Source: Candidatus Bathyarchaeota archaeon
GTDB lineage: Archaea > Thermoproteota > Bathyarchaeia > Bathyarchaeales > Bathycorpusculaceae
Reading direction: 5' to 3'
Assembly: GCA_003133625.1 (NCBI GenBank)
Contig: PKYH01000090.1
Coordinates: 1,752 to 34,520, forward strand
DNA: 32,769 nucleotides
Shown here: positions 7,509-22,948 of the stretch, one piece after another
Numbering within the stretch: the first letter of the stretch is position 1
Layout of the letters: each line of letters opens with the position of its first letter
Translations under genes and position numbers: made by a program
Notes under the pieces: model-generated
What the model was told of the DNA's origin: nothing
The model's input: only the letters and a program-made list of their open reading frames with translations
Database searches by the model: none

Positions 7509-7619
7509 TGAGTGGAATGTTTTTCCCTCCAAATCCAGTTAGGCACAAAAATGCGAAAAGTGCAGAACGTACCACACAAAAAACAATTAGATCCGCAGAC
7601 CAACAATGGAGTGTCACAA

Positions 7620-9114
<1,495 letters not shown>

Positions 9115-15775: not shown

Positions 15776-16006
15776 TTTAGACAGCCTTAACTTGCTTCGG
15801 CCCCCCTCAATAGGCGAGAGAGAAGCGGAAAAATAATTTAACATAGCTATTTTTAAATTTTAACAATAGCTCGCTGTTTATGCTTATTATGATTCATATA
15901 TGCGCATTTTTCTATATATTCTATATTCTCTATGAGTCAGTTTGTATTCTATGTTGGGCGAATATATTACCCTGTTTATCTATAAACCCCAAAACGAGGG
16001 AAAAAA

Positions 16007-17260
16007 ACGAATAAAACATATACAATCCTAAGCATAGCGACAATCGTAATAGTTATCGCAGCAGTTTTCAGCTACATGTACATAGTAAATTCAAGTTCAG
16101 TACAACAGCCCACACCAACTCCAACTCCCACCGCATCAACAAACCCTAATCCAACTGCAACACCAACATCCTCACCAACCAGTACTCCTACTTCGACAGC
16201 ATACCCAACTCCAACCCCAACAGCGACACCCAGTCCAACGCCAACTCCATCACCAGTATCATTGACTGGCGCAGGAGCAACGTTCCCCTATCCACTGCTT
16301 AACGCAATGATAACCAATTACACAACAAGCGTGAAACCTAATGTACAAGTAAACTACCAATCAATAGGCAGCGGCGGCGGAATCTCAGCAATGCAAGCAA
16401 AAACGGTAGATTTCGGAGCCTCTGATGCGCCATTAAGCGCCACCGACATGGCTAACGTACCTAACGCATTGCACATTCCAGAAACAATCGGCGCAGTAAC
16501 AATAGCCTACAACTTACCCGGCGTACAAACAGGCATTCACTTAACTGGCAAAGTTATTGCAGACATTTTCCAAGGAACAGTAACAATGTGGAACGACCAG
16601 GAAATCCAAAGCCTAAACACTAATGTTACACTTCCAGCAAAATCCATACTAGTAGTCCACCGCTCAGACAGCTCAGGAACCACCTTCATCTTCACCGGCT
16701 ACCTTAGCGCATCAAGCACAGCATGGAACAGTTCAATTGGACAAGGCAAATCAGTCTCATGGCCAGTAGGAATCGGTTCTAACGGTAACACAGGTGTTGC
16801 TTCGGTGGTTCAAGGACAACCATATGCTATCGGCTATGTTGAATTAGCTTATGCATTGCAAAATAGCATGACTGTTGCAGCAGTTCAGAATCCAGCTGGA
16901 AACTGGATCTTACCATCACTCGCATCAACAACAGTAGCGGCTCAATCAATAGCTTCAGCAGGTCTACCGGCAGGCAACGCTAGCTGGACAAGCGTAAACA
17001 TACTTAATGCGCCAGAACCAAACGCGTATCCAATTGTAAGTTTCACCTACTTACTGGTGTACAAAGAACTGAACGTGTTACCCGACATGACTCAAGACAA
17101 AGCAACAGCACTCGTGCAATTCCTCTGGTATGTAGTGCATGACGGTCAAAACTTGTCACCTGGATTAGCCTATGCTCAACTGCCACCAAACGTTGTCCAA
17201 ATAGACGAAACAACCATTAAGTCGATAACCTTCAATGGGCAAACATTACCCACAACCTAA
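16007..17260 (+). CDS. pstS: Phosphate ABC transporter substrate-binding protein PstS (copy 1), P/T-rich linker
   Basis: LTGAGATFPYPLLNAMITNYTT...INYQSIGSGGGI...DFGASDAPLS; PstS family. ORF track starts at ATG 16076, but in-frame NKTYTILSIATIVIVIAAVFSYMYIV upstream is the expected signal anchor, placing ACG 16007-16009 at the start position after GAGGG. Confidence 0.9.
   Translation, partial: TNKTYTILSIATIVIVIAAVFSYMYIVNSSSVQQPTPTPTPTASTNPNPTATPTSSPTSTPTSTAYPTPTPTATPSPTPTPSPVSLTGAGATFPYPLLNAMITNYTTSVKPNVQVNYQSIGSGGGISAMQAKTVDFGASDAPLSATDMANVPNALHIPETIGAVTIAYNLPGVQTGIHLTGKVIADIFQGTVTMWNDQEIQSLNTNVTLPAKSILVVHRSDSSGTTFIFTGYLSASSTAWNSSIGQGKSVSWPVGIGSNGNTGVASVVQGQPYAIGYVELAYALQNSMTVAAVQNPAGNWILPSLASTTVAAQSIASAGLPAGNASWTSVNILNAPEPNAYPIVSFTYLLVYKELNVLPDMTQDKATALVQFLWYVVHDGQNLSPGLAYAQLPPNVVQIDETTIKSITFNGQTLPTT
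16108..16257 (+). repeat. Low-complexity Pro/Thr-rich coding repeat (PstS1 linker)
   Basis: QPTPTPTPTASTNPNPTATPTSSPTSTPTSTAYPTPTPTATPSPTPTPSP. Confidence 0.9.
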
Positions 17261-17359: not shown

Positions 17360-18445
17360 CTAGCTTAGAACTGAATCAACGTTTAAGTTAAGCACAACTT
17401 CGGAAATGTCGCTGGCGTATTCTGCTGTTCTCCTGACACTTTCGATAAGCAATCTTAAGTTAACGATTTCTTCGATCTTAGCGTTTTGCGAAAAAAGAAC
17501 AGCTTCTTTCTCCAGCTTATGTACCTGACTCAGCTTTTCAATAACACTTTCAGCCAAGTTAAAGTCATGCCTAAACAACGCGTCCATAGAATTTTCAAAC
17601 ATTGAATTAGCCAAACCGCTTAACTGACCTATCTTTTCTAAAAGCTCTTCATTGACTGGCTCTTTTAAGAGTAGCGTGTTTTCGGCGATTTTGGTTGCGT
17701 GATCTGCGGTTCTCTCAACCGCTTTCCCTATAAGTCTGTAACCTAAGCAGTCTTTTTGGCTGTTTAATCCGATTTCTTTTACGATTCTTTGGTTTGAAAC
17801 CGCCAGCTTCAGAAGCCTCACTATGTACAGGCCAAATCGGTTTACTTCCCGGTCGGTTTCAATAACCGCTTTAGCACTGGGATAATCCAGTTTTTTTAGT
17901 GCAACTATGGCTTCTTTATGCATAGACGAAGCTATTATCGACATTCGACTTAGCGCATTCTGAACAGTAAGCTCAGGATAATTAAGTAAAACTTGTAGTG
18001 TTAAATCTGTTGGGGTGTCAATTACGATTTCTGTTCCAACCAAGTAGTGTCTGGCAAAAGTTTTGAGGTGGTTTCGAAGTTTTGAGGAGAGCACTTTTTG
18101 TCCTTGCGCTCTAATATGCAGAATGTTGTACCCATCTAAATAGGCGGAAATTGCTGTCCTCATGACGGCATCAGGATTATCGTTTAAGGATGCTTTGATG
18201 AAGGCTTCATCTTGCTTCTCTTTTTTTACAAACTTTGAAGGCGCTATTGATAGTGAGCCATCGTCTTCCTCACGGACCACCATTGAGCTTCCTCTCTTAA
18301 GCTCATTTCGAATAGCCCAACCCTTAGGCAACGAGAGTATGAATGTTGATCCGCCTGTCACCTGAAGTTTGCGTTGCTCTTCATTTATTTTTTCTGCTTC
18401 TTTAGTCACATTTGACTCCAAGTTACTTTTTCTATGAGGCGTCAT
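17360..18445 (-). CDS. Phosphate uptake regulator: SpoVT-AbrB domain fused to PhoU domains
   Basis: KLQVTGGSTFILSLPKGWAIRNELKRGSSMVVREEDDGSLSIAP (AbrB-like), then helical PhoU-like repeats. Confidence 0.88.
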   Translation of the reverse strand: MTPHRKSNLESNVTKEAEKINEEQRKLQVTGGSTFILSLPKGWAIRNELKRGSSMVVREEDDGSLSIAPSKFVKKEKQDEAFIKASLNDNPDAVMRTAISAYLDGYNILHIRAQGQKVLSSKLRNHLKTFARHYLVGTEIVIDTPTDLTLQVLLNYPELTVQNALSRMSIIASSMHKEAIVALKKLDYPSAKAVIETDREVNRFGLYIVRLLKLAVSNQRIVKEIGLNSQKDCLGYRLIGKAVERTADHATKIAENTLLLKEPVNEELLEKIGQLSGLANSMFENSMDALFRHDFNLAESVIEKLSQVHKLEKEAVLFSQNAKIEEIVNLRLLIESVRRTAEYASDISEVVLNLNVDSVLS

Positions 18446-18541: not shown

Positions 18542-19666
18542 ATGAATACTAAATATGCAATCGTATTCGCAATAGCTGCAATCGCCATAATAATAGGCTC
18601 AGTAGCAGCATACGTTTACCTTTCATAACCAAGCGCAACCGCCCAATCGATCACTTTGAATGGCGCTGGAGCAACATTCCCCTACCCACTTCTAAACAGC
18701 ATCATCACAAAATACTCAACAAACGTGAAACCAAACGCGAAAATAAACTACCAACCAATCGGTAGTGGAGGAGGAATTTCTGACTTAAAAACCAAAACAG
18801 TTGATTTTGCAGCCTCAGACGCGCCACTAAGCGCCTCTGACGCGGCTGGTGCGCCAAACGCCGTTCATATCCCAGAAACTATTGGCGCTGTAACATTAGC
18901 TTATAACTTGCCTGGTGTTCCTTCTGGTCTTCACTTGACCGGCAAAGTCATCGCTGATATTTTCCAAGTAACAATAACAACGTGGAACGACCCAGCAATT
19001 CAAAGCTTAAACACTAATGTGACTCTTCCGTCAAAAGCTATAGTAACAGTTCACCGTTCGGACGGTTCAGGAACAACCTTCATTTTCACTGGCTACTTAA
19101 GCGCATCCAGCAGTTCATGGAATAGTTCAGTTGGACAGGGCAAAACAGTTGCTTGGCCTAATGCGCCCGGTGGAGCCATTGGTTCAAACGGCAACACAGG
19201 TGTTGCTTCAACGGTAAATGGTACACAGTACGCCATAGGATACGTTGAACTAGCTTATGCATTGCAGAACGGTATGACTGTTGCGGCGGTTCAGAATCCT
19301 GCTGGAAACTGGATACGACCAACTTTAGAATCAACACAACTAGCTGTCCAATCTGGCGCTGCAAGTGGCTTGCCAGCAGGCAACGAAAGTTGGACAAGCG
19401 TTAGCCTTCTTAATGCTCCAGATGCAAACGCGTACCCAATTGCAAGCTTCACCTACTTGCTAACATATAAGGAGCTTAACGTAATTCCTGGAATGACTCA
19501 GGAGCGGGCAACAGCACTTGTCCAGTTCCTCTGGTACGTAGTGCATGATGGTCAAGACTTGGCGCCAGGGCTTGCTTACGCAAAGTTGCCATCAAACGTT
19601 GTGCAAATAGACGAAGCAACTATTCGCTCATTAACATTCAACGGACAACAACTACCAACAACTTAA
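18542..19666 (+). CDS. pstS: PstS (copy 2) with in-frame TAA between signal peptide and mature domain
   Basis: ATG 18542: MNTKYAIVFAIAAIAIIIGSVAAYVYLS, then TAA (18626-18628), then PSATAQSITLNGAGATFPYPLLNSIITKYS... in the same frame to TAA 19664-19666. ORF track begins at TTG 18656, which removes export signals. Confidence 0.85.
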
Positions 19667-19678
19667 GGTGGATTAGCT

Positions 19679-20653
19679 CTGACCCAGCCCCACCCCCAAA
19701 AATTTTTTTCCAGTAAAATAAAACTAACAGGCGATAACTTATTCAAAACCATTGCTGCTATTGTTGCGGCTTCAGCAATGATCATCTTACTCATTACAGG
19801 ATACACCTTAACAACTGGTTCAGTGCCCGTCTTGCAAAGGTTCGGTTCAAACTTTTTCTTTGGCACAGCTTGGAATCCGGTTGAAGGTAGAGAACTCTTT
19901 GGTGCGCTCCCATACGTGATGGGAACGCTTGTTACCTCAGGCATCGCACTCCTCATAGGTGTTCCGTTAAGTTTGGGTATAGCGATTTTTCTTGTGGAAA
20001 TGGCTCCCCGAGCGCTCAGAGTGCCAGTCGGTTACCTTGTTGAGTTACTCGCAGCAGTTCCAAGCGTCATCTACGGGCTCTGGGGACTATTCATCTTCCG
20101 CTACTGGATGCTTCACTACATTGAAACACCAATATCCACCTATTTAGGCTGGATACCGATTTTCAGCGGAACACCCTTCGGCTTAGATATTTTCACCGCA
20201 GGAACAATCTTAGCAATCATGATAATTCCCACGGTAGCTTCTATCTCAAAAGAAGTCATAAGCGCGGTTCCTAACTCCATCCGTGAGGGCGCTTACAGCA
20301 TTGGAGCAACAAAATGGGAAGTTATCCGATACTGGATCTTAAGCTATGGTCGCTCAGGCATTTTTGGAGCAGTAATCCTCGGCTTGGGGCGGGCTGTGGG
20401 AGAGACAATGGCGGTCTCAATGCTTATCGGAAACGCTACTGGTCCAGCAGCCATACCAACATCACTTTTTAAACCCAGCCAAACTATGGCTTCACTTATC
20501 GCTAACGGTTTTCTCGAAGCGACAGGTTCGTTAGAGGTTGCAGCTTATATCGGTGTTGGATTAATCCTGCTCCTGCTCAGTCTGCTGATTAACGTGGTTG
20601 CGCACGTGATGGTGAGTCGCTTGTTAAAGGTTAAGGGAGGCGCAATCGAATAA
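19679..20653 (+). CDS. pstC: Phosphate ABC transporter permease PstC
   Basis: LTGDNLFKTIAAIVAASAMIILLITGYTLTTGSVPVLQRFGSNFFFGTAWNP... and permease EAA region. ORF track starts at ATG 19778 inside TM1; upstream in-frame sequence has no ATG/GTG/TTG, and CTG 19679 follows AAGGTGG. Confidence 0.9.
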   Translation: MTQPHPQKFFSSKIKLTGDNLFKTIAAIVAASAMIILLITGYTLTTGSVPVLQRFGSNFFFGTAWNPVEGRELFGALPYVMGTLVTSGIALLIGVPLSLGIAIFLVEMAPRALRVPVGYLVELLAAVPSVIYGLWGLFIFRYWMLHYIETPISTYLGWIPIFSGTPFGLDIFTAGTILAIMIIPTVASISKEVISAVPNSIREGAYSIGATKWEVIRYWILSYGRSGIFGAVILGLGRAVGETMAVSMLIGNATGPAAIPTSLFKPSQTMASLIANGFLEATGSLEVAAYIGVGLILLLLSLLINVVAHVMVSRLLKVKGGAIE

Positions 20654-21480
20654 TCTCCAATTACGGCTTCAGGAAATTCAAGAACAGACTTTTCTTTATT
20701 CTCTGCGCTGCATGCGTTGTTATAGCGATCACTCCTTTACTAAGCATACTATACGAGGTAATTGTGAGAGGGGCACCGCAAATTAGCCTCAATTTCTTGA
20801 CTCAAAGTACCTCTGGCGGCGGCATTGGACCAGCAATACAGGGCACGTTGATTCTGATTGGGTTAACAAGCCTCATTGGAATCCCCCTAGGAATACTATC
20901 GGGTGTTTACCTTGCCGAATTTGGAAACAACAAGTATGCAGCCACCATGCGCACAGTCAACGATATATTAACCGAGTTTCCGTCGATAGTTGTTGGAATA
21001 ACAGTTTACGGCGTAATAGTTATCGCGCTTATTGGGGAGTACTCGGCGATTGCAGGTGCAATCGCGCTTTCCTTCATCTTAATCCCCATAGTTGCCCGAA
21101 CAACAGAGGAATCCCTAAAGTTGGTGCCGAATAATGTACGAGAAGCCTCACTTGCTCTGGGGGTTCACAAGTGGCGAACTACCCTCAGCGTCGTATTACC
21201 AGCAGCTAAAAGCGGCTTGGTAACTGGTACACTGCTTGCAGTCGCCAGAATCGCAGGCGAAACCGCACCATTAATTATGACGATTTTAGGTAACAGGTAC
21301 TTCTTCCAAGGTTTAACACAGCCTATGGCTGCTTTACCGCTTGAAATCTGGCGGGACTCATTACAGCCACAAGTTAGTTTGCAGGCGCAGGGTTGGGGAG
21401 CAGCCTTAATTCTGATTCTTATAGTATTAAGCCTGAATATCGCAGTTAGAATAGCAAGCATAGGTCGACTTAAAAAATGA
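20650..21480 (+). CDS. pstA: Phosphate ABC transporter permease PstA
   Basis: In-frame upstream of GTG 20764: [49 protein letters not shown] (expected TM1), with GGGAGG at 20635-20640 and ATA at 20650-20652; downstream permease motif. Confidence 0.9.
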
Positions 21481-22289
21481 CAAGCATGAACAGCACTCAA
21501 GATAAAGCGGTAAACCAACAACCTATCGATTTAGACATGAAAATGCAGAGCATAGGCTTAAACGCTTGGTTTGGAGCAAAACAAGTTTTAAAAGACATAA
21601 ACTTAAACGTCAAAGCCAACGCAGTAACAGCCATAATTGGGCCCTCAGGATGCGGTAAATCAACGTTCATACGATGCCTAAACAGAATGCACGAACTTGT
21701 TTCAGGCGCCAAAACGTCAGGCCAAGTGCTATTAGACGGCAAAAACATTTACGAAAAACAGGTTGACCCGGTACAGATTCGCCGAAGAGTAGGCATGGTT
21801 TTTCAAAAGCCAAACCCATTCCCCACAATGTCTATTTACGATAACGTAGCGGCAGGATTAAGGTTAACTGGAACCAAGAAAGGAAAGAACCTGGATGAGG
21901 TAGTCAAGCGTAGCCTTGAGCAGGCGACCCTTTGGGCTGAGGTGAAAGACGATTTGAAGAAGCCGGGCACAAGTATTTCAGGAGGGCAGCAACAGCGGTT
22001 GTGTATTGCACGGGCTATTGCTTTGCAGCCTGAGGTTATTTTGATGGATGAGCCATGTTCAGCGTTGGACCCTATTGCCACCGCTAAAATTGAGAAGTTG
22101 GTGGTGGGGCTTAAGCGTGATTACACCGTTGTTATTGTAACACATAACATGCAGCAAGCGTCCAGAGTATCAGATTACACAGCTTTTTTCTACTTAGGTG
22201 CGCTTGTTGAGTTTGGGGCAACTAAAGACATTTTTGAGTATCCCAAGAACCCGTTAACAGAGAAATATATAACAGGAGAATTCGGATAA
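21477..22289 (+). CDS. pstB: Phosphate ABC transporter ATP-binding protein PstB
   Basis: [22 protein letters not shown] (Walker A), [45 protein letters not shown] overlap with pstA stop. Confidence 0.97.
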
Positions 22290-22303: not shown

Positions 22304-22948
22304 ATGAGCAGAATAATTGACATGGGCTTAGAAGAACAAGCAGTCCTACTGGTTAAGATGGGCGAATTAACATTTGAAACGCTTGCCCTATCAATACGCG
22401 GCTACCTCAATGGAAAAAGTGTTCACCCGCAAGTGCGTGAAATGTCAGATATGCTCGTTTCAATGGCGGATAAGGTTGAAGATAAAACCTTTGAGTTAAT
22501 CGTCCGGTTCCAGCCAGTCGCCTCTGACCTTAGAACAATAAAATCCTACATGAAAATAGGCTATGACTTTGCAAGATACGGAAGATACGCCCTTGACATA
22601 TCATACATTAACGACCAGCTAAACGGTTTAAAAGAATGCGAAGCTTGGGCAAAAGACTACATTGAAGAAATGAGCGAAAAAGTACTCATGATGGTTAAGA
22701 TAAGCGTTGATTCCCTTAGAAAACTCGACATAACCCTCGCCAAAACCATCTCCGAAACCGAACTTGAAGTCGACAAAATGTATTTTGATTATCTTCACAG
22801 GCTAATTGGTGCAGAGCAGGCTAAGAGTAAATGCGTAATTTCCAGCGCACTAATGACCCGGTATTTGGAGCGGATAGCTGACCACGCCACTTACGTTTGC
22901 GAATCAATCGTGTACATAGTAACAGGTGAAAAAATAACCCTAAGATAA
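22304..22948 (+). CDS. phoU: Phosphate signalling protein PhoU
   Basis: Helical repeats with ...RFQPVASDLRTIKSYMKIGYDFARYGRYALDI and ALMTRYLERIADHATYVCESIVYIVTG. Confidence 0.93.
   Translation: MSRIIDMGLEEQAVLLVKMGELTFETLALSIRGYLNGKSVHPQVREMSDMLVSMADKVEDKTFELIVRFQPVASDLRTIKSYMKIGYDFARYGRYALDISYINDQLNGLKECEAWAKDYIEEMSEKVLMMVKISVDSLRKLDITLAKTISETELEVDKMYFDYLHRLIGAEQAKSKCVISSALMTRYLERIADHATYVCESIVYIVTGEKITLR

Follow-up and report, generated by a model that had tools for sequence, protein, structure and literature searches.

An in-frame TAA between the export segment and the intact mature domain of PstS2 in a Bathyarchaeia genome: probably a young nonsense mutation, in a lineage with candidate near-cognate start codons

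The split pstS2 frame and its locus

The pst locus of a Candidatus Bathyarchaeota archaeon raises the question of why pstS2, a gene for the binding protein of the Pst ABC transporter, contains a stop codon immediately upstream of a mature domain that remains open to its normal end. The window analyzed here, a stretch of 32,769 nucleotides, belongs to contig C6 of a 2.5-Mb draft MAG (96.7% complete); the complete archaeal 16S rRNA gene at 7619-9114 is of use for placing this MAG. Reading of the pstS2 frame from the ATG at 18542 yields 28 codons (MNTKYAIVFAIAAIAIIIGSVAAYVYLS), then a TAA, and then, in the same frame, 345 sense codons up to the terminal TAA at 19664-19666 (Table 1). Thus, the frame reading bears out the initial annotation, which described this ATG, the in-frame TAA and an intact mature PstS2 frame, and which pointed to TTG 18656 as a start that would yield a PstS without export signal; this TTG is the first canonical start downstream of the TAA.

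The mature frame is identified as PstS by a match of its residues 4-301 to PF12849 (E=2.4e-41), and its position upstream of pstC-pstA-pstB-phoU is the same in G008, G017, G019, G020 and G021. The 28 codons that precede the TAA share homology with the N-terminal ends of uninterrupted PstS2 proteins in relatives (e.g., MNTKYSIIIAVIAIAIILGSIAAYIYLSQP in G008). Given this homology and the identity of the mature part, a chance arrangement of the two pieces can be ruled out. In its domain, in its operon (pstS-pstC-pstA-pstB-phoU) and in the possession of an N-terminal membrane/export segment, the gene is like other PstS genes of the Pst ABC transporter; it differs in that one in-frame TAA separates the export segment from the mature domain, so that the export signal is not continuous with the latter.

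The conserved gene order is pstS1, the AbrB/PhoU gene on the opposite strand, pstS2, pstC, pstA, pstB and phoU. The frames of the last four genes are open, and the tandem paralog pstS1 has an intact mature domain and is syntenic in the relatives.

Table 1. Features of the pst locus (positions in the window)
Feature	Position	Strand	Comment
pstS1, tandem paralog	16007..17260	+	start column ACG 16007-16009; GAGG 15996-15999
AbrB/MazE-PhoU domain regulator, located between pstS1 and pstS2	17360..18445	-	synteny conserved
pstS2, 5' part (28-codon N-terminal membrane/export segment)	18542..18625	+	homologous to N-termini of relatives' intact PstS2
pstS2, in-frame TAA	18626..18628	+	sense codon in relatives
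pstS2, mature domain (345 codons open up to the normal stop TAA)	18629..19666	+	
pstC	19679..20653	+	likely start CTG 19679-19681 behind AGGTG
pstA	20650..21480	+	probable ATA start at 20650-20652, which overlaps the pstC stop; GGAGG upstream
pstB, intact ATPase	21477..22289	+	
phoU, intact	22304..22948	+	

The TAA column in related genomes

The comparison set comprises 32 genomes of the genus, labeled Candidatus Bathyarchaeota or Bathycorpusculum, 28 of which contain a PstS match. None of these 28 carries a stop in the mature part of pstS, nor do stops interrupt the N-terminal segments in the relatives. The N-terminal segment of pstS2 can be aligned with them codon by codon, and this alignment, which the initial annotation had proposed as a check, reveals a sense codon throughout the relatives at the TAA column: CAG in G008 and G011, CAA in G021 and G015, and codons for Lys, Ala, Ser or Thr in others, such that the residue itself is not conserved. 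Given the CAG and CAA codons at this column, including that of the nearest relative (G008, with 79-80% identity to the mature PstS2 domain), CAA is the most likely ancestral codon, and a single C-to-T change would convert it to TAA. No further genome of this species was found among the searched genome contigs, from which records of the own genome may be missing, and the species is represented by one genome.

Age of the lesion and constraint on the mature domain

Substitutions unique to one lineage were counted in mature pstS2 with G008 as the sister and G019 as the outgroup. Their distribution over codon positions 1/2/3 is 23/11/50 in this genome compared to 21/20/51 in the intact sister, and the NG86 estimates for the two sequences are dN 0.13 and dS 1.34. 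There are 21 unique amino acid changes in this genome versus 32 in G008, indicating no relaxation of mature PstS2. Judging by these counts, selection has acted on the mature domain along practically the entire branch, so the stop must be of very recent origin, unless it is not real or does not disable the gene. The possibility that pstS2 is an old pseudogene is ruled out by the codon-position and relative-rate counts.

The best explanation, to which we assign a probability of roughly 0.6, appears to be a young nonsense mutation in an otherwise healthy, redundant pstS2. Under this scenario, one C-to-T transition in the sampled strain turned a Gln codon CAA into TAA at the junction of the export segment and the mature domain. 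Ribosomes would then terminate after a membrane peptide of 28 residues, and no PstS2 would be exported. The loss would be recent, and the intact transporter genes, together with pstS1 as a possible source of binding protein, would explain why it is tolerated. The facts that the stop is private to this genome, that the nearest relative and several others have Gln at this column, and that a 338-kb sample of the genome is not riddled with such stops all count for this explanation. The gene displays the traits of a recent nonsense pseudogene, namely a private stop, an ancestral sense codon and little decay, and resembles such pseudogenes that have a tandem paralog in the single transition, the lack of further decay and the redundant tandem copy, the sole difference being whether the pstS2 base is real. 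Most likely, then, this is an ordinary broken gene and not a novel mode of decoding, and a nonsense mutation here would have little significance beyond hinting at the redundancy of the tandem pstS genes.

The part of pstS1 in this scenario is less straightforward. PstS1 could cover the loss of PstS2, but its start column is ACG, in contrast to ATG in the relatives, with GAGG seven bases upstream, a feature absent from the initial annotation, and this makes the backup uncertain. The next canonical start, ATG 16076, lies past the membrane segment, which would be lost. The ACG is either a codon of near-cognate initiation or a lesion, the second in this gene pair; compensation by pstS1 would require that the ACG is used for initiation, as the CTG of pstC and the ATA of pstA seem to be.

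Consensus error

The main rival explanation, which we consider a serious but distinctly less probable one, is an error of sequencing, assembly or strain mixing, in which case living cells would have the sense codon and an intact PstS2. A single base in a MAG assembly may be a consensus error; this base is one step away from the expected codon, and the complete absence of decay in mature pstS2, the fragmentation of the draft (176 contigs) and the representation of the species by one genome are all compatible with this possibility. Against it, a codon-usage scan of the 338-kb sample from the same genome, in which a strong coding signal was demanded on both sides of a stop, identified under the strict threshold only the pstS2 site and one other place, which looks like two ordinary neighboring genes. 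Such stops thus are rare in the sample, with no other clear in-frame gene split, although the scan had a sensitivity of only about 0.6 at a less strict threshold and can easily overlook short N-terminal splits. The same scan, at that sensitivity, lends no support to a generally error-ridden assembly, pstS2 being the sole clear split. The initial annotation had offered a very recent lesion, read-through or an error as the three options; the absence of decay supports the first and the second is disfavored by the observations described below, whereas mutation and consensus error cannot be told apart by the assembly sequence.

Read-through and translation restart

Alternatively, the TAA could be read through, e.g., by a near-cognate Gln-tRNA, such that some full-length PstS2 is exported. 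Read-through would, as well as a young mutation, leave the mature domain constrained past the TAA as observed, and initiation in this lineage also looks relaxed (see below). Nevertheless, UAA read-through in pstS2 is unlikely, indeed quite improbable, because TAA is the main terminator, no UUA tRNA is seen and there is no special structure downstream. Specifically, TAA ends 68 of the 118 long frames in the sample, which speaks against genome-wide reassignment of this codon. Among the 42 tRNA matches in the incomplete draft genome, none is called with a UUA anticodon, a few intron-containing ones having no assigned anticodon. A search for a recoding element showed that the stretch of 120 bases starting at the TAA folds little better than shuffled sequences (z -1.05). 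Furthermore, the stop is common to no relative. In archaea, according to a review of recoding, read-through has been described only at UGA and UAG (PMC8211752). The selenocysteine (UGA) and pyrrolysine (UAG) cases resemble pstS2 in that an open frame under constraint continues past an in-frame stop; in contrast, the codon in pstS2 is UAA, no recoding element is seen and the relatives lack the stop.

A broader variant, in which the lineage would be relaxed at both ends, combining near-cognate starts (CTG, ATA, ATC, ACG) with partial UAA read-through that yields exported PstS2, seems slightly less probable still. A demonstration of UAA read-through would add a new type to the recoding described in archaea. 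Least probable of all is a restart of translation after the TAA, at TTG 18656 or a near-cognate codon, to produce a PstS that stays in the cytoplasm and serves a new role: the frame is open from 18629 and the lineage looks lenient in its use of start codons, but there is no Shine-Dalgarno-like motif upstream of TTG 18656 or ATC 18650, and no such form is present in any relative.

Near-cognate start codons in the genus

The start codons of this locus and genus are of more interest than the pstS2 stop and merit a study of their own. The pstC gene lacks an ATG, GTG or TTG start; the start column is CTG here and in six of seven close relatives, with GTG in the seventh, and is preceded by a GGTG-like motif in nearly all compared genomes. 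The start column of pstA, with a GGAGG-like motif before it, is ATA in this genome and in five relatives, and GTG or ATG in the others.

When about 200 coding frames of the genome sample were surveyed, two further candidates emerged, so that the pst operon holds three of the five candidate near-cognate starts of this genome. The strongest case is a gene for a SIS-domain (sugar-phosphate isomerase-like) protein (L138, G000:C17, near 11941, minus strand) that starts at ATC. In 20 genomes (L221-L240), its start column is ATC, ATA or ATT in 12, ATG in six, and GTG and TTG in one each, with 83-93% identity in the protein after this column. Several of the frames with ATC, ATA or ATT open merely five to seven codons upstream, without a canonical start. 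The other candidate, an Lrp-like regulator (L135, 15146, minus strand), has a likely CTG start, the N-termini of its relatives being too different to confirm it. In the G020 sample, one clear near-cognate case, pstC, was detected among 150 frames.

Taken together, these comparisons make it quite probable that near-cognate starts (CTG, ATA, ATC, ACG) are used in this Bathyarchaeia lineage, and near-cognate initiation in the genus seems genuine, if rare. Start switches from AUG to CUG and from AUG to AUU were counted at about 1e-5 across 36 triplets of prokaryote genomes (PMC5622118). The open-access papers searched contained no description of near-cognate starts in Bathyarchaeia. Gene callers limited to ATG, GTG and TTG would truncate such proteins, with pstS1, pstC and pstA losing N-terminal segments. 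The alternation of AUG with AUC, AUA or AUU at one start column across a genus also offers a ready-made test of the strictness of codon choice in archaeal initiation. The pstS gene of G018 (L019, G018:C18) also lacks a canonical start, with CTG AAA AAT AAC near the start column.
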